Below the pieces are notes generated by a model. That model was not told the origin of the DNA, made no database searches, and saw only the letters and a program-made list of their open reading frames with translations. A DNA stretch of 64,000 bases from positions 744,001 through 808,000 of the forward strand of contig NZ_LN999833.1 of assembly GCF_900039485.1 (NCBI RefSeq). Direction: 5' to 3'. The DNA comes from Candidatus Doolittlea endobia. Lineage in GTDB: Bacteria > Pseudomonadota > Gammaproteobacteria > Enterobacterales > Enterobacteriaceae. Shown here piece after piece: positions 10,274 through 61,664 of this stretch (position 1 is the stretch's first letter; every line of letters starts with the position of its first letter). Made by a program: the position numbers and the translations under genes.

Positions 10274-11251
10274 TATAAAACTCCATTGTATATTTTTGTA
10301 ACAATCGCACAGGATATCGCCATAAGACGAAAATATCGAAATAGTATGCTTAAGGTCATATTCTGGCCATAGCATTTAAAAAATTAATAGAATTTATCGT
10401 CGTTATAGTGAGCCGATGAAGTTCGATGTCCCGATCATTCGGCAGACACTAAAAACTTATCAGCTTCATTTTCTCTATTGAAGTGCTTCACCATGATATG
10501 GCAATGAATGACTCTAGAATCTGTCGTTACAACACGAAATTATCAAGAGTAATATGTAAATTATGATAAAAACTCACCTAGAGTTATACAAACATATACA
10601 TGGCCTATTTAGAATATCTTGCTTAATTTAAGCAAATATACTTATCGAATAAAGCAGTATTACTTGACAAGCTTATTGCTCATAATTCATTGTTTTGAAA
10701 CACAAAAGGATACGTGACAATATTATCGGGATAACATCTGCTTCAACAGATAACGATTTCAGCATTGTGACACACATTTCTTTGGTATAATTTTTAAAAT
10801 GTATCAGAATAGCGTTTGAAGCACATTTCATTTCCCATTCAAAAGTATTCATTGCTATGCTATATCGATAATAGTCTAGTGTTGTATGTTTTGCCTGAGT
10901 ATCTTAATAACAAGAATAAAGTTGGAATATCTTCAAAAACAGCTTGCTAATATAGGGTTTTTCAACGTCGCATGAGCATTGCATTGCACTCTATTTTTAT
11001 TAGTTACACTACAAAAAGACGAATAATATCAATCTTTACTATATATATATCTTAAAAAATCAGTACATAAGACATCTTAGCCACGACCTATTAATAGATT
11101 AGGTAAAATCGTTCGAAAATAATAGCGTTTACCACGATAAATGTATAGATATCAACGGTACAAACATCACGACTTCACTCTAAGTGACTTCTTTCTTCGC
11201 CACCGATAAGGTAAAAATACTGGTCGGTGATGCCATTTTCTTTTAGGTGAT
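10274..11251. other. AT-rich spacer, no gene recognised
   Basis: Nearly 1 kb with no intact gene or RNA. It carries a partial copy of the dispersed repeat at 10406-10444. Otherwise it is AT-rich sequence with frequent stops in all frames. Confidence 0.5.
10406..10444 (+). repeat. Partial copy of dispersed repeat unit
   Basis: The segment TAGTGAG...AAGTTCGATGTCCCGATCATTCGGCA closely resembles 58210-58249 (TAGTGAG...AAGTTCGACATCAGGATCATTCGGCA). The CATTCGGCA core also occurs, inverted, inside the element at 36477-36650. The match ends sharply at the 3' side. Confidence 0.55.
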
Positions 11252-12724
11252 TCAGAAAATACGGTTTCTACCGTTTTCTGCGCTGTGCTCATCGCGCCTG
11301 TGTGGTATTGAAAACGCTTGTTCTAACCATTCTGTATGGAACACGCCTTCCTTGTCGGTACGCTTATAGGTATGGGCACCAAAATAGTCGCGTTGGGCCT
11401 GAATTAGGTTAGCTGGCAAGACCGCGGAGCGGTAGCCATCATAGTAAGCAATAGCGGCAAAAAAAGTCGGAGTTGAAATACCGTTTTGAACCGCATAAGC
11501 GACAATATCGCGCAATGCTTGCTGGTAGTCATCGGCAATTTTCTTGAAATACGGCGCCAACAGCAGGTTGGCAATCGTTGCATCTTCAGCATAAGCGTCG
11601 ATAATTTTTTGTAGAAACTTGGCGCGAATAATGCAACCGGCTCGAAAAATTTTCGCAATCTCGCCATACTTCAGATCCCACTGATTCTCTTCTGAGGCGG
11701 CCTTCAACTGAGAAAAACCCTGCGCATAGGAAATTATTTTACCCAGATAAAGCGCGCGGCGCACTTTCTCAATAAAATCAGCTTTGTCACCGCTAAACGC
11801 TTCTCTTTTCGGGCCGGAAAGCACTTTAGAGGCCGCCACGCGTTGCTGTTTGAGTGAAGATAAATATCGAGCAAACACTGATTCGGTAATTAAACTTAGC
11901 GGTTCACCCAAATCAAGCGAGCTTTGTGCAGTCCATTTACCAGTGCCTTTGTTGGCTGCCTCATCTAAAATGACATCGATCAAATAGTTGCCTCGCTCGT
12001 TCCTCATGGTAAAAATATCTTTAGTAATATCAATGAGGTAGCTGCTTAATTCCCCTTTGTTCCATGCACTAAAAGTGCTAGCTAGCTGCTCATTGCTTAG
12101 GCCAAGCGAATTTTTCAAAAGCGCATAGGCTTCAGCAATCAGCTGCATATCACCGTATTCGATACCGTTATGCACCATCTTGACATAATGACCAGCGCCA
12201 TCAGGACCAATATAGGTCACACAAGCTTCACCGTCTGCGCGTGCGGCAATTTTTTCTAGGATTGGCGCAACTAGTTCATAGGCGTGTTTTTGGCCACCTG
12301 GCATAATTGACGGCCCTTTCATGGCCCCTTCTTCACCGCCGGACACGCCGATACCGATAAAGTTGAAACCTTCTTCCGACAGCTCGTTGTTACGGCGGAT
12401 GGTGTCCTTATAAAAGGCATTGCCGCCGTCAATAAGGACGTCACCCTTTTCCAAAAAGGGTTTCAACGAGTCAATGGTTCGATCCGTACCTTCACCGGCC
12501 TTAACCATTAATAGAATGCGCCGCGGTTTTTCCAGCGAATTAATAAACTCTTCCACCCTGTAATAGGGTATTAACTTTTTCTCAGAGTTTTTCGCAATTA
12601 CTTCATCGGTTTTTTGGGGCGACCGGTTAAAAATAGATACGCTGTAACCACGGCTTTCAATATTAAGCGCTAGCTTGCGCCCCATTACCGCCATACCGAC
12701 GACGCCTATTTGTTGCATGGACAT
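11252..12724 (-). CDS. gnd: 6-phosphogluconate dehydrogenase, decarboxylating
   Basis: NADP-dependent oxidation of 6-phosphogluconate to ribulose-5-phosphate and CO2. The N-terminal Rossmann motif [15 protein letters not shown], the NRS cofactor motif, the catalytic GVSGGEEGA and Lys of [17 protein letters not shown], and the C-terminal GAHTYKR are present. ATG 12724 follows AGGAG and starts MSMQQIG like E. coli. The product is 490 residues against 468 in E. coli. The extra length is a 3' extension of about 22 residues after the usual end (HTEWL), apparently read-through after loss of the ancestral stop. Its NADP requirement is notable because nadK in this window is broken. Confidence 0.96.
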
Positions 12725-25599: not shown

Positions 25600-26285
25600 A
25601 ATCGCAGATAGGCAATTAGCTTTTGAAGCACATGTTAGTAACGTACGGTGTACCGATCCTATGTATTACCATACTGAGTTCAAGCGGTATGGACAGATGT
25701 GCGCAGCCGAAAATTATGCGGTATTTGACGCCACTTGTCAGCAGGTTGCAAAGTGCCACATAGAAATGGCACGCGCTAGCCGTAAAGGCAACGAAGCTAT
25801 TTTGGTCATTTTGAAGTTGAGGCATCTAATATAATAACCCTACCGACGCCTGCGTCTAGTGAAATCATATGAGAGTGTTTGACATTTGAGATCAAAAACG
25901 TGACAAATTGTGTTTTATGATACTGACTAAACTATCTGTAGATGATATTTTAGTCAGTATCAACGCGCTACGCGTCTTTTCTACGGCATTATTGGACCGC
26001 GTAAAAAAGATATTTGCTTTGCTACGACATCGATGAAAACACTCTTTCAACTCTAATGGGTTAGCTCAACTGGTTCAGCGGATAAGAAAGCAGGCCTATT
26101 TGCTTGATAGTGTCAACAATATTCAAGGAAAATAGTTCTAGCGTTACCGCTAGTACGTTAGGACTGGATATTCTGGTACAGTGGATAATTGAGCACTTGC
26201 GCATGTTATGTGCTGAAGATGTGAAAGAGCTTATAGACCAAAAGAGAACGTTGTTTTAGGAGTACCGAAGATTCTTATCTAGAAG
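25600..26285 (+). pseudogene. ispH: 4-hydroxy-3-methylbut-2-enyl diphosphate reductase remnant
   Basis: IspH is the last enzyme of the MEP pathway, an iron-sulfur enzyme making IPP and DMAPP. Blocks recovered across frames in order: LLKHMLVTYGVPI, then YAVFDATCQQVAKCHIEMARASRKGNEAI split here as YAVFDATCQQVAK and HIEMARASRKGNEAI (E. coli TVFDATCPLVTK, HMEVARASRRGEESI), IIGPRKKDICFATTS, SNSNGLAQLVQRIRKQAYLL, and SSVTASTLGLDILVQ. About 30 codons are missing between the first two blocks, and most of the central domain is lost. It lies upstream of dapB as in enterics (ispH-dapB order). Function is clearly lost. No other MEP gene lies in the window. Confidence 0.92.
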
Positions 26286-26864: not shown

Positions 26865-27680
26865 ATGAGCAATATACCAATCCGTATCGCGGTTGCCGGA
26901 GCAGGCGGCCGAATGTACCACCACCTTATTAAGGCGGTGGTACAGTCGAAAGAAGCGACATTGGGTGCTGCGTTAGCTCGTACCGGTTCAACATTGTGCG
27001 GTGTAGACTCTGGTGAGGTAGCCGGTATCGGTGCCTTGGGTGTAACGATAAACGGTGAACTGACAGAGATAAAAAAAGACGATTTTGACATTCTTATCGA
27101 TTTCACTCGTCCTGACGCTACCATGACGTATCTGGAATTCTGCCGTCAGTACCACAAAGGTATCGTGATCGGCACAACCGGCTTCAACAATGCCCAAAAA
27201 GAAGTTATTAGCACTGCAGCACAAGAGACGAAGATTGTTTTTTCTGCTAATTTCAGCGTTGGTGTCAACCTGACGATTAAGCTTCTGGAGAAGGCAGCGC
27301 AGATCATGGGAGAAAAAGCCGATATTGAAATTATCGAGATCCATCACCGACACAAAGTGGATGCTCCTTCAGGCACCGCGCTGGCTATGGGCGAAGCGAT
27401 AGCAGGCGTGCTAGGACGTGATCTGGCTCATTGCGCTGTGTACAGCCGTGAAGGGCATACCGGCGAACGTAAAACAAAAAGTATCGGCTTCGCCACAGTT
27501 CGTGCCGGCGACATTGTCGGTGAGCATACTGCAATGTTTGTTGATATCGGAGAACGCCTGGAGATAACCCATAAGGCGTCTAGCAGGATGACGTTTGCTA
27601 TCGGGGCGGTTCGTGCCGCTGTTTGGCTTTCTGCCCAGAAAAGAGGCCTTTTTGACATGGTCGATGTACTTAACCTCTAG
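26865..27680 (+). CDS. dapB: 4-hydroxy-tetrahydrodipicolinate reductase
   Basis: NAD(P)H-dependent step of the lysine/meso-diaminopimelate pathway, supplying peptidoglycan and lysine. The 271 residues match E. coli DapB (273). The dinucleotide motif VAGAGGRM is at about residues 9-16, followed by FIDFTRP-type [17 protein letters not shown], the catalytic [15 protein letters not shown] and the C-terminal [14 protein letters not shown] 26865 ([12 protein letters not shown]) follows GAGAGG; an ATG four codons upstream lacks a ribosome site. Its place after the ispH remnant is enteric. Retention fits with the peptidoglycan enzymes MrcB and LdtB. Confidence 0.96.
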
Positions 27681-40082: not shown

Positions 40083-40436
40083 TTAACTAATAAAAGGACC
40101 CTCTATCGTCGATTTGTAGTCAATGTGCGTCAGAATGTCGCTACTGTCAAAAGTCAGCGTCAGCGTTTTCTGCGAAACTGTTTTATCGCCTAGCTCACGG
40201 CGGAAAATATAATACCAAGTATTTGATCCGAACGGATCCTTCATCATTGGTGTACCAAGGATATAGATTGCTTGCTGTTTCGTCATATCAATATGAATCC
40301 TGGCGATGTCATCTGTAGTCAGATAATTGCCCTGATTGATATCGGGATGATAAACTACTCTCTCGAACACGGAACAACCTACGGTCAACATCATCACAAT
40401 AACAGTAGTAATCAACGCCTTATAACTCATAATCAT
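40083..40436 (-). CDS. bamE: Outer membrane protein assembly factor BamE
   Basis: Lipoprotein subunit of the BAM complex that inserts beta-barrel proteins into the outer membrane. The 117 residues match E. coli BamE (113). A signal peptide ends at the lipobox LTVGC with the lipidated Cys near 21. The core has FERVVYHPDINQGNYLT, MTKQQ and LGTPMMKDPFGSNTWYYIF. ATG 40436 follows AAAGGA at good spacing. Longer in-frame starts upstream would bury the signal peptide. It is next to the recN and nadK remnants, the enteric nadK-recN-bamE order. Confidence 0.95.
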   Translation of the reverse strand: MIMSYKALITTVIVMMLTVGCSVFERVVYHPDINQGNYLTTDDIARIHIDMTKQQAIYILGTPMMKDPFGSNTWYYIFRRELGDKTVSQKTLTLTFDSSDILTHIDYKSTIEGPFIS

Positions 40437-40599
40437 GATATTCCTTTTGAGAACAGGACGCTGATGAATAATAGACTCTGCCGGCGCTAGAACCTCTGCA
40501 AGGCCACCCATGTAACCTATGGTGAGAAAAATTATGCTTTTCTAAACGCAAAACAACGTTGTTGTGATGTCGTTTCCGATCAATAGGTGAATGTCGGCT

Positions 40600-40935: not shown

Positions 40936-41327
40936 CTCACAAATATTTTGTCAAGAAGACGTTTTTGATAACCGGGATCAGCATAATCATGGCAGATATG
41001 TTAACTGTTATGAAGCTGTATTAGAAATTGGCTAATGCTCACGTAATTATGACAGCGAAATTAGGCGTTGTAGCCCTGCCTGGCTTATTACTCGGCGCGT
41101 CATGTATGCACCACGCTATATTCAAACATCTGGGCGACCTTTGTCGTACTATTACTAGTCTGGCAATAGCTGTCGAGTGCAGTCTGATCGCAATAAATTA
41201 CTCTCTAATTATTAATGTGCACACAATTACGAAATTAGCCTAGTCAATTGAGCTAGCACAGTTGACTTCCTGCAATAAAGATACTGCTAAGATAGCAGTA
41301 TCAGCTAAATTTAGAATAATTTTTCGA
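40936..41327. other. Spacer with hairpin, likely eroded recN
   Basis: About 390 bases between recN and nadK remnants. A perfect 10-base stem GATACTGCTA/TAGCAGTATC with a 3-base loop lies at 41280-41302, just past the ancestral nadK end, and could terminate nadK. The rest is unassigned. Confidence 0.45.
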
Positions 41328-42187
41328 CTAGCCTAATTTAATACTTAATGTATTAAAATAATTGTAATCATTTGGATGAATTAAATCGAGAGAATAATTG
41401 CTTCGACGAATAAAAATCTTCCACCATTTTGGATTGGCAGCGCTATCTGGCTATCACAACTGATTTCTAAGCCCGGCATCAATTTGGAAAATTTTAATCG
41501 AATTGTGCTGCTACCATGAATTACTAGCGGACGCGAAGACAGGATATGTGGAAACATCGGCACTAATGTAATTGCGTCCACCAACGGAGTTAATATTGGA
41601 CCGCCAGCGGAAAGAGCATATGCTGTAGAGCCGGTTGGTGTAGCAATAATTAGGCCATCAGAACGTTGAGAAAAAGCAAAAGTATCATCAATATATACCT
41701 CGAACTCAATCATGCGCGCCATCTTGCCGGGATGTGCTACTACCTCGTTAATAGCGCTGCTTAAGCAGCTACAAGCATCGCCAAAGCAAACCTGGACTTC
41801 CAGCAAATGCGTTTTTCACTACGAAAGTGACCTAGCAGTACGTTTGATAATTGCACTAGCGCTGAATCTGGATCGAGGTCGGTCAAAAAGCCGAGATTAC
41901 CGTGATTAATGCCAATAACTTTAATGTCGTAGCGTGCTAAAATTCTCGCCGCGCTTAGCATATTGCCATCACCGCCGACCACAATCGCCAGATCGGCCTG
42001 TTGACCGATATCAGCTAAATTACCAGTAATAGCTTCGCACAATTCTAAATCGCTGGCGATCTGATATTCAATGATAACGTAATATCCTTTTTTCTTTTAA
42101 CCAATAGTACAGGGTCTCATGCGTAGACAACGCATTAGAGTGACGCGGATGGCCGACGATGCCGATTGTTTGAAAAGTGCTAGTCAT
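41328..42187 (-). pseudogene. nadK: NAD kinase, multiply frameshifted
   Basis: NadK phosphorylates NAD to NADP and is essential in most bacteria. The whole gene is recognisable, but in four frames. MTSTFQTIGIVGHPRH to YYWLKEK stops after an extra A in a GAAAAAAGG run near 42087. The next frame carries [35 protein letters not shown] and ends near 41810 where one T is missing before LEVQVC. The third frame has [33 protein letters not shown] and [14 protein letters not shown] one-base loss near 41422 precedes [20 protein letters not shown] conserved Trp codon (KLGW) is TAG at 41330. The catalytic GGDGN and TPTGSTAY motifs survive. Inactivation is recent. Confidence 0.9.
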
Positions 42188-42308: not shown

Positions 42309-42914
42309 ATGATGACTAATAAAGAACAGAACACCCCTGATCGGCCAGTCTTACAAGAGGGTGAAATAGAGAAAGTGCAGAAAGCCGAAACTTCTCCTGA
42401 GACGGTTGTCGTTGTGGATCCGCGCGATATGAATCTGCGCGATGAGCGTATTGCTGAATTGGAAGTAGCATTGAGCCAAGCACAACAACGTGAGCGCGAT
42501 AGTGTGCTGCGCGCCAAAGCAGAAATAGAAAATGTACGGCGCCGCAGTAAACAGGATATTGAAAAGGCACATAAATTTGCGTTGGAACGTTTCGTCGGTG
42601 AATTGTTACCGGTTATCGATAATTTAGAGCGCACGTTAGATATGTCGGATAAAGCTAAGGCAGAGCTGGCCTCCATGCTCGAGGGGATTGAGCTAACGCT
42701 TAAAGCGTTGCTGGATGCTGTGCGCAAATTTGGCCTAGATGTGGTAGGAGACGTGCACGTGCCATTTAATCCTGAAGTGCATCAGGCGATGACTATGCTG
42801 GAGTCCGACGAGCATAAACCTAACCAGGTGATAATGGTGATGCAAAAAGGCTATACCCTTAATGGACGCCTTATCCGCCCGGCTATGGTTGCAGTATCGA
42901 AAGCTAAAAACTAA
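42309..42914 (+). CDS. grpE: Nucleotide exchange factor GrpE
   Basis: Releases ADP from DnaK in the Hsp70 cycle. The 201 residues match E. coli GrpE (197). There is an acidic, disordered N terminus, a long dimerising helix ([22 protein letters not shown]), the helix block [17 protein letters not shown], then [15 protein letters not shown] and the C-terminal beta domain ([26 protein letters not shown]). Two adjacent ATGs (42309, 42312) are possible; the first is 7 bases from GGAG. It is divergent from the nadK remnant as in enterics, with a conserved heat-shock promoter and a hairpin terminator just after the stop. Confidence 0.97.
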
Positions 42915-56767: not shown

Positions 56768-58141
56768 GTGCAAAATTATATTAAAGAAGCGCGTATCTTG
56801 CTGGCTCTTGCTATCCCTGTTATTCTGACCCAGGTGTCACAAACGGCGATGGGCGTGGTAGATACTATTATGTCCGGCTCGGTAAGCCCTGCTGATATGG
56901 CAGCAGTCGCGGTAGGTACGTCCATCTGGTTGCCGATCATTTTATTCGGTCATGGCCTGTTACTGGCGTTGACGCCAGTTATCGCTCAGCTGAAGGGTTC
57001 TGGGCGTCGTGAGTGTATTGCACATCAAGTTCACCAGAGCTTTTGGTTGGCACTTAGTACGTCGCTGGTTATCATGATATTGCTTTACAATAGTCATCGC
57101 ATCATCGGCTACATGCACAGCGTTGAGCCAATTTTGGCGGAGAAAGCAGTTGCTTTCTTGCGCTACTTAATGTGGGGAGCGCCTGGTTATCTGTTTTTCC
57201 AGGTACTACGTTGTCAATATGAAGGGCTTTCCCGCACCATACCAGGTATGGTCATTAGTTTTCTCGGCCTGGTGATTAATATTCCTATAAACTATATCTT
57301 TATCCACGGTAAGCTCGGCATACCAGCCTTAGGCGGTGTTGGCTGTGGTGTGGCAACTGCTTCGGTTTACTGGATCATGTTCTTATTGCTAGGCGCTTAT
57401 ACACATCGGGTGAATGCGCTTCGCGGTTTTTGTTTGTCGAGCGGATGGAAAAAACCAGATCCGGTAGCGCTAAAGCGGCTATTTATCTTAGGTTTACCTG
57501 TAGCGTTGGCGCTATTTTTTGAAGTGACATTGTTCGCGCTGGTGGCATTATTGATCGCGCCGTTAGGCATTGTTGCCGTTGCTGGCCATCAAATCGCTCT
57601 CAATTTCAGCTCACTTATGTTTGTACTGCCACTATCGATAAGCGTGGCTGCCACCATCCGTATCGGATATCGCTTGGGACAAGGTGATGTTGAACAGGCA
57701 CGGATCAGCGCCTGGTCTAGTCTAATGATAGGCGTTACGATGGCCTGCTTCACTGCTTTATTTACTAGCCTGTTGCGTGAACATATTGCCCTATTATACA
57801 ACGATAATCCTGGCGTGGTATCGATGGCCTCGCATCTGATACTATTAGCGGCTATTTATCAAATCTCTGACTCTATACAGGTTATAGGTAGCGGAGTGCT
57901 ACGCGGTTATAAAGATACCCGTTCGATCTTCTTTATCACTTTTATCGCGTATTGGTTACTCGGCCTGCCGTGCGGCTATGTACTAGCACTAACGAATTGG
58001 CTACGTCCCGCCATGGGGCCAAGCGGTTTTTGGTTCGGGTTTATTATCGGGCTTACTTTTTCCGCTATATTGATGACATGTCGCATGTTCTGGCTACAAC
58101 GACAAACGTCGGCACGAATTTTGCACCGAGCGGCATGCTAA
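56768..58141 (+). CDS. mdtK: MATE-family multidrug/Na+ antiporter MdtK (NorM)
   Basis: Inner-membrane cation-coupled efflux protein for drugs and toxic metabolites. The 457 residues equal E. coli MdtK in length and align throughout with 12 hydrophobic segments: [20 protein letters not shown] at the N terminus, the repeat in the second half ([20 protein letters not shown]), [18 protein letters not shown] and the [13 protein letters not shown] loop. It starts at a GTG (56768) with AAAGG upstream, where E. coli has MQKYISEAR and here (M)QNYIKEAR. Keeping a multidrug pump intact is unusual in a reduced genome and suggests export of a host or symbiont compound. Confidence 0.96.
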
Positions 58142-60555: not shown

Positions 60556-60677
60556 ATAAACCATCCAGCTTCGCCAGGAATTTAGAAGAACAACTATATC
60601 AAAATTTGTTGCAATGCATTAACAATATGTCACGCCAGAGCCGCAGGTTTATAAAACAGCAAAACCACGTGTGATAG

Positions 60678-61664
60678 GATTTTTACGAGCGTAATTACTG
60701 CCAAATTGTTACTGACAAGGCCAGTTTCATCGATGAACACTAGGCTTAGATCTACTACGTCGATACTCTACCGAAATCTTCAGTGCTGTAAACATTGTCA
60801 TTGCTTTCGGCGCCCGGCCCTATCTACCGCGTATTCATGGCAGCTACTCTATCCTTGCCCTAAGCATAATCTGAACTATGTAATTATTTATGGTACCGGC
60901 GTTGTCGGTTACGAGTATACTTCGGTTTTCCGCGGTATGAATGTGAATGTAGATTTAATCAATACCGAGATAGGCTGCTGGTATTCCTCGATCAGGATAT
61001 ATCTGATCGTCCTATCCTACCGTTTCTGAGGAAACGGGATGGTTATCTGCATAACGAGGAATACACAGAAACTAAATGGCTAGATAACGGCGTCGAGGGG
61101 CTCTGGGAAACGGATGAAAGCTGATTATCTACTCTACGTCAATGGCCATACCGGTAATACCGATGCACTCAAATTACATCAGGTTGAGCTAGAAGCGAGC
61201 AACCGTCAGCTTGCACCAAGCCTCGGCTGCCATATTTACTCTATTGATAAATGTCATAGGGATCCTAGCCTAGCTTCCTAAACCTAAGATCAGGTCACTA
61301 TCTCCGTGCAGGCGATAATTAAATGACAGGCCAATGTGCAACTGATTAAAAATATTTCGACTGGCGTTTATACCATCACTGAAATTATCTCTGTCGGAAA
61401 AATTGAGCAAAAGCTCACGACAATGCAAATCCCGTACAAAGTCGGACGCGCACAGTTCAAACATTTGGCGCGGTCGATGTTGATAGTTTAGCTCACAGCG
61501 AAACAAAACCGATCTTCGGTATCTACTGTTTTAGCGAGCGTGCTGCTAATATTATTCATATTAGCCATAGCTATCATGGAGCAAAAGGGAAAGATAGTAA
61601 TACTATCGAATATTACGGAAGTCTACCGATAGTGGCGCTTAACGACTTAAACCGTCTATTTTAA
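60678..61664 (+). pseudogene. sthA: Soluble pyridine nucleotide transhydrogenase remnant
   Basis: Remnant of the FAD enzyme that interconverts NADPH and NADH. Blocks across frames: [11 protein letters not shown] and FIDEH at the start, [10 protein letters not shown] (E. coli CGSRPYHPTD), [20 protein letters not shown] with DLINTEIG ([20 protein letters not shown]), HNEEYTE, and the C-terminal FSERAANIIHI, SNTIEYYGSLP and LNDLNRLF (FGERAAEIIHI, LNGLNRLF). The first ~90 codons with the FAD-binding GxGxxG are missing, and many stops are present. Divergent from fabR as in enterics. Confidence 0.93.

Follow-up and report, generated by a model that had tools for sequence, protein, structure and literature searches.

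As described in excerpts of the ArtSymbioCyc paper (PMC12013274), the aphid symbiont Buchnera aphidicola of Sipha maydis has to take up both NAD and NADP, because it has lost the enzymes that interconvert them. Likewise, the excerpted text of PMC4122945 states that the Evansia symbiont needs NAD import. Open-licence literature on NAD kinase and NADP in symbionts, consulted in extracts, contained no account of nadK in Candidatus Doolittlea endobia; the gene may nevertheless carry a pseudogene annotation elsewhere already. Doolittlea is one more instance of a symbiont with imported NAD and NADP, unusual in the freshness of the damage. In the excerpts on Sipha maydis Buchnera the gene is counted as lost, whereas in Doolittlea nadK is still present with its five fresh lesions, and the two symbionts also differ in host and lineage. 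The ant symbiont Candidatus Westeberhardia cardiocondylae (G006 in our genome set, 100% identical to the Westeberhardia record over 3,728 bases, genome listed at 0.5 Mb) resembles Doolittlea in lacking a working nadK and nadE while keeping FolD, but differs in that no nadK remnant was found. A further small genome (G021) shares with Doolittlea a nadK pseudogene adjoining grpE. There, however, the gene is an old wreck with 31% identity and 23 stops, and a congener (G189) keeps an open nadK. In two relatives (G004 and G026, labelled Sodalis-like on the basis of 16S and plasmid kinship) and in E. coli, nadK is orthologous by sequence and lies beside grpE, but is intact where the Doolittlea gene is broken. 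As set out below, Doolittlea nadK is very probably a recently inactivated gene of a host-restricted, Sodalis-related endosymbiont, in which NAD would first have been obtained externally and a later supply of NADP would have relaxed selection on nadK.

The Doolittlea genome comprises 834,734 + 11,828 = 846,562 bases, with a chromosomal GC content of 44% and a listed completeness of 99.9%. We analysed a stretch of 64,000 nucleotides of the chromosome (C1:744001-808000, the window; coordinates without the prefix C1 refer to it). A profile search of chromosome and plasmid found the nadK pseudogene as the sole nadK. It lies at 41311-42187 on the minus strand, between an ATG at 42187 and the ancestral TAA at 41313-41311. 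Frameshift-aware protein alignment together with nucleotide alignment against three intact nadK genes placed five lesions in the assembled sequence: four frameshifts of one base each and one Trp-to-TAG stop. Read along the gene, an A-run at 42088-42093 holds one extra A compared with the relatives (+1 frameshift), single bases are missing at about 41808 (41807-41809) and about 41420 (41419-41422; both -1), and nucleotide alignment shows a conserved Trp codon changed from TGG to TAG at 41328-41330. Just past the TAG the terminal A-run (41320-41324) has five A against six in both Sodalis-like relatives, a further -1 frameshift. The initial annotation had reported three frameshifts and the TAG. 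All four are seen in the alignments; its count missed the fourth frameshift in the terminal run.

Read through these lesions, the gene is identical to the NadK of a Sodalis-like bacterium (L023) at 245 of 292 residues over its whole length. Given such a match and the position beside grpE, as in E. coli, chance similarity is not an issue. The gene order in E. coli is grpE-nadK-recN-bamE. Doolittlea has the same order without recN, which was expected between bamE and nadK and gave no tblastn match in the genome. The neighbouring grpE (42309-42914, plus strand) is intact, and bamE (40083-40511, minus strand) is an open frame whose match covers residues 12-112 of the 113 of the E. coli protein. 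Ancestry in the ATP-NAD kinase family is evident from matches to both of its domains on two leftover frames of the minus strand. A frame of 93 amino acids (41761-42042) holds part of the N-terminal domain (PF01513 positions 68-129, 67 bits), and one of 141 amino acids (41381-41806) holds the C-terminal domain (PF20143 positions 2-114, 131 bits). The conserved strings GGDG, GNLGFL, SDGL and PTGS are preserved, in line with the earlier statement that the catalytic motifs survive; the string NDA is absent, but it is absent too from an intact relative. The single open frame across the domain pair that a functional ATP-NAD kinase would have is interrupted by the four frameshifts and the TAG.

The kinase is not the only missing part of the pathway. 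At an E-value of 1e-5, tblastn returned zero matches in Doolittlea for nadA, nadB, nadC, pncB, nadD, nadE, nadR and pnuC, and the NAD_synthase profile gave only hits of 34 and 21 bits, compared with at least 197 bits for nadE elsewhere. Since all of the NAD synthesis and salvage genes searched were unmatched, NAD itself must come from outside. Judged from sequence, nadK was thus the last remaining step of an otherwise lost NAD/NADP pathway among the routes searched, and the initial picture of a genome that had lost just one essential step is not supported. At the same time zwf, gnd, dapB, folA, folD, trxB, fabG, murB and fpr are full length. We take their use of NADP(H) from E. coli; on this basis NADP(H) is still needed, as had been proposed from gnd (11321-12724, minus strand; NADP-dependent in E. 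coli) and dapB (26865-27677, plus strand), both indeed full length. For asd, ilvC, argC, aroE and hemA zero matches were found in Doolittlea. A bypass by transhydrogenase or salvage was rejected: pntAB and pnuC are unmatched, and the soluble transhydrogenase gene sthA, correctly called dead before, is a remnant in pieces in different frames (60651-61661, plus strand). Zwf and Gnd can regenerate NADPH, but NADP itself has to be supplied externally. Doolittlea hence combines the absence of genes for NAD synthesis, salvage and NAD kinase with retained NADP-using enzymes, as a symbiont dependent on imported NAD and NADP does. Altogether 95 hand-picked E. coli proteins were tried, giving 42 full-length matches (39 orthologs, while fabF, rep and gor matched paralogs), 15 partial matches, some of which are just short or diverged at one end (bamE, secF, lptE), and 38 without a match.

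Other pathways are also eroded. Genes named by eye as guaB-, guaA- and purL-like lie in many pieces (C1:85035-87582, C1:266948-267928), so that purine synthesis seems damaged, though no nucleotide carrier was found. Both ispH and dxr are in pieces (25679-26208 and C1:819380-819918) and ispE is unmatched, such that isoprenoid precursors may be imported; ispU, encoding undecaprenyl diphosphate synthase, is full length. Both coaA and coaE are fragmentary (C1:456797-457441, C1:811815-812355), so that the symbiont may import coenzyme A as well. The plasmid (L053, 11,828 bases) carries an mscS-like stretch (10361-11141) 80% identical to a Hoaglandella endobia plasmid and a repA-like stretch (11378-11827) 82% identical to Sodalis plasmids.

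A second nadK, the possibility of which had been raised initially, was not found in chromosome or plasmid. The only other PF01513 match reaches 19 bits, below the cut-off, and falls inside the full-length pfkA (C1:338213-339172); in general, weak hits to this profile (about 18-27 bits) fall in long frames, of which pfkA is one, at profile positions of about 60-103. One might consider that a side activity of another symbiont kinase makes NADP, for which the full-length PfkA with its weak NAD kinase profile match would be the candidate, or that a co-symbiont rather than the insect supplies it. PfkA is, however, 82% identical to the glycolytic enzyme of E. coli. To our knowledge Tremblaya princeps is without nadK, which speaks against a supply by the co-symbiont, and the ant symbiont Westeberhardia does without the gene too. 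We therefore consider this explanation improbable and return to an inactivated nadK with NADP probably supplied by the host.

The age of the damage can be estimated from how little else in the gene has changed. Identity of the read-through product to Sodalis-like NadK is 80-86%, with 247 of 288 residues for a second relative (L024) besides the value for L023 given above; the lower end is a raw value of 80.3%, in which 16 residues before the ATG were added and overlapping pieces counted twice. In a 400-kb stretch of the Sodalis-like relative G004, 20 full-length comparisons gave a median identity of 82%, which is about the level of the read-through nadK; since one of them (o605) runs antisense to grpE, 19 are genes. 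Several comparisons in this stretch that looked broken involved a paralog, a wrong start or an antisense frame, and we did not treat these as pseudogenes. Identity drops much further in other wrecks, to 56%, 50% and 47% for o91, o92 and o213 (guaB-, guaA- and purL-like by eye). The dN/dS ratio of nadK, a value that counts some overlap, is 0.051 and lies within the range of 0.014-0.254 of the 20 full-length comparisons; these ratios are rough, because synonymous divergence from the relative has reached saturation (dS of 1.3 in the median and 2.2 for nadK). At 103 sites that are invariant across 27 other NadK proteins only 5 changes were found, while a random spread of the 41 differences would put about 15 there. 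For intact NadK proteins from five other genomes that are small or reduced, 4/87, 5/95, 14/105, 22/142 and 23/151 of the differences fall at invariant sites, such that some of these intact proteins have a share as low as that of the pseudogene (5/41) or lower. These counts suggest that the copy was constrained until recently. Disabling lesions thus coincide with little other decay, and from these sequence comparisons the inactivation looks recent. Identity, dN/dS and invariant sites agree in this respect with what the initial annotation had supposed.

Errors of assembly or sequencing in an intact nadK would be compatible with normal coding constraint around the frameshifts and with the location of two of the four in A-runs (of six and five A). 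These runs are short, though, and errors would have to account for five separate lesions within 877 bases, one of them a plain substitution to TAG, as well as for two changes, G78S and R95H, at invariant residues adjoining motifs. In addition, a single full-length frame is seen in each of 39 genes with E. coli orthologs, about 36 kb in total, and in each of 19 with Sodalis-like orthologs; this comparison is biased by the picking of full-length genes, yet the long carB, leuS and tufB are free of lesions. Sequence errors are thus a highly improbable cause. Least of all would we expect that some NadK is still made by transcriptional slippage, by frameshifting or by assembly of the 93- and 141-residue fragments: insect symbionts are known to show slippage on long A-runs and the two Pfam domains do sit on separate leftover frames, but the runs here have only five or six A and two of the lesions are outside any such run. 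Readthrough of the TAG would be needed as well, and the fragments begin at about residues 49 and 127, the second stopping at about 255, so that the protein would lack both its N- and C-terminal ends. The earlier expectation that slippage cannot rescue all of the shifts is borne out to the extent that rescue is unlikely. The evidence continues to favour a nadK that is genuinely and recently inactivated.

We then asked how Doolittlea compares with other small symbiont genomes. The set comprised 80 genomes of 0.3-0.9 Mb, 79 from the family of Doolittlea (itself included) and one (G058) from the same order; four of 84 had been dropped. The gene nadK was scored as present at a PF01513 match of at least 50 bits, and nadE at a NAD_synthase match of at least 197 bits, since the latter profile also matches other genes at 18-43 bits. 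In a first sample of 60 genomes including Doolittlea, 55 had PF01513 over the cut-off, three had no match (G006, G030, G033) and two a weak one (G010, G021); among 74 further genomes of the family with at most 0.9 Mb, 44 reached 50 bits. Over the set of 80, a working nadK is absent in 33, Doolittlea included, and the essentiality of NadK in E. coli, on which the initial annotation had relied, does not carry over to such genomes. Presence in the remaining 47 denotes a profile match alone, the frame of one (G210) having just 178 amino acids. With nadE found in 29 genomes, 27 have both genes, 2 only nadE, 20 only nadK and 31, among them Doolittlea, neither. Loss of nadK is thus seen in 31 of 51 genomes lacking nadE compared with 2 of 29 that have it (Fisher p = 1.2e-6, uncorrected for kinship). 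That 20 of the 51 keep nadK means that NAD import alone does not make the gene dispensable. In 14 of 40 genera all sampled members are without nadK and in 4 genera members differ, a pattern that suggests several separate losses, counted by genus and not on a tree. Among the 33 genomes, G021 and Doolittlea have nadK remnants; a NadK protein search of 17 others (G006, G010, G030, G033 and 13 further) found none. A FolD match of at least 180 bits is kept in 29 of the 33, G308 among them. Of the other four genomes, G107 has a fragmentary FolD, while G033, G182 and G195 are without it.

The comparative data suggest an order in which NAD synthesis is lost first and NAD kinase later. Two genomes, G097 and G302 (0.6 and 0.5 Mb), are at odds with this order in its simple form: they have a strong nadE match and no nadK, not even a remnant in the protein search, while their congeners G217 and G228 have nadK. 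Here NAD is perhaps home-made and NADP not. In three genomes of one genus (G126, G235 and G308; 0.3 Mb) the weak NAD_synthase matches all contain internal TGA and no other stop, which may reflect either decay or TGA decoded as an amino acid; FolD of G308 carries two internal TGA.

How NADP would reach the symbiont was addressed by searching for carriers. The profile of NTT-type nucleotide transporters (PF03219) matched in none of the 80 small genomes, a set without a positive control; across 229 genomes of the class there were 38 with a match, 36 of them above the cut-off and the best at 612 bits, and Doolittlea was not among them. A membrane inventory, taken as open reading frames of at least 150 amino acids with at least five predicted membrane helices, yielded 34 proteins; 33 were scanned, while one crossed a stretch boundary. 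Beta-barrel porins, ABC importers split into subunits with fewer helices and proteins below 150 residues fall outside these limits. No known carrier of NAD(P) or nucleotides was among the 33, which include secretion, envelope and respiratory proteins, two ABC half-transporters, a sugar MFS protein, a phosphate transporter, an Nramp protein, a Na/H exchanger, a TerC protein, an ABC-3 permease, an AI-2E family protein, a MATE protein and a few uncharacterised families. The MATE-family transporter is intact (56768-58138) in a genome with few permeases. The initial claim that NADP has to be imported thus stands as far as no other NAD kinase was found; the nucleotide transporter that it had envisaged did not appear, as neither NTT nor PnuC is recognisable in Doolittlea.

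We propose the following course of events. Doolittlea would first have come to depend on outside NAD. The same supply may then also have brought NADP(H), whereupon selection on NadK, the last step, would have ceased and frameshifts would have accumulated. With NAD already imported, import of NADP is a small further step, and the loss of nadK becomes less surprising than it had seemed. Imported NADP would be recycled to NADPH by Zwf and Gnd. Its ultimate source is likely the insect cell, and insect cytosol has its own NAD kinase. Doolittlea is, as we assume, the mealybug partner of Tremblaya, and in this nested symbiosis the cofactor would presumably also cross the Tremblaya cell. Tentatively, and at somewhat less than even chances, we suggest that intact NADP enters Doolittlea by a carrier of unrecognised kind, either host-encoded or a repurposed remaining permease, and that nadK was lost only recently.

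Doolittlea nadK provides a clear and well-timed snapshot of an already known trajectory. The loss of an enzyme that is essential in free-living bacteria is seen early, with the enzymes that need its product still intact. It points to a missing part of the picture, namely how NADP enters endosymbionts without a recognised dinucleotide carrier. If NADP does enter by such a carrier and nadK was lost only recently, a comparison of mealybug populations may allow a date to be put on when NADP import arose in this lineage.
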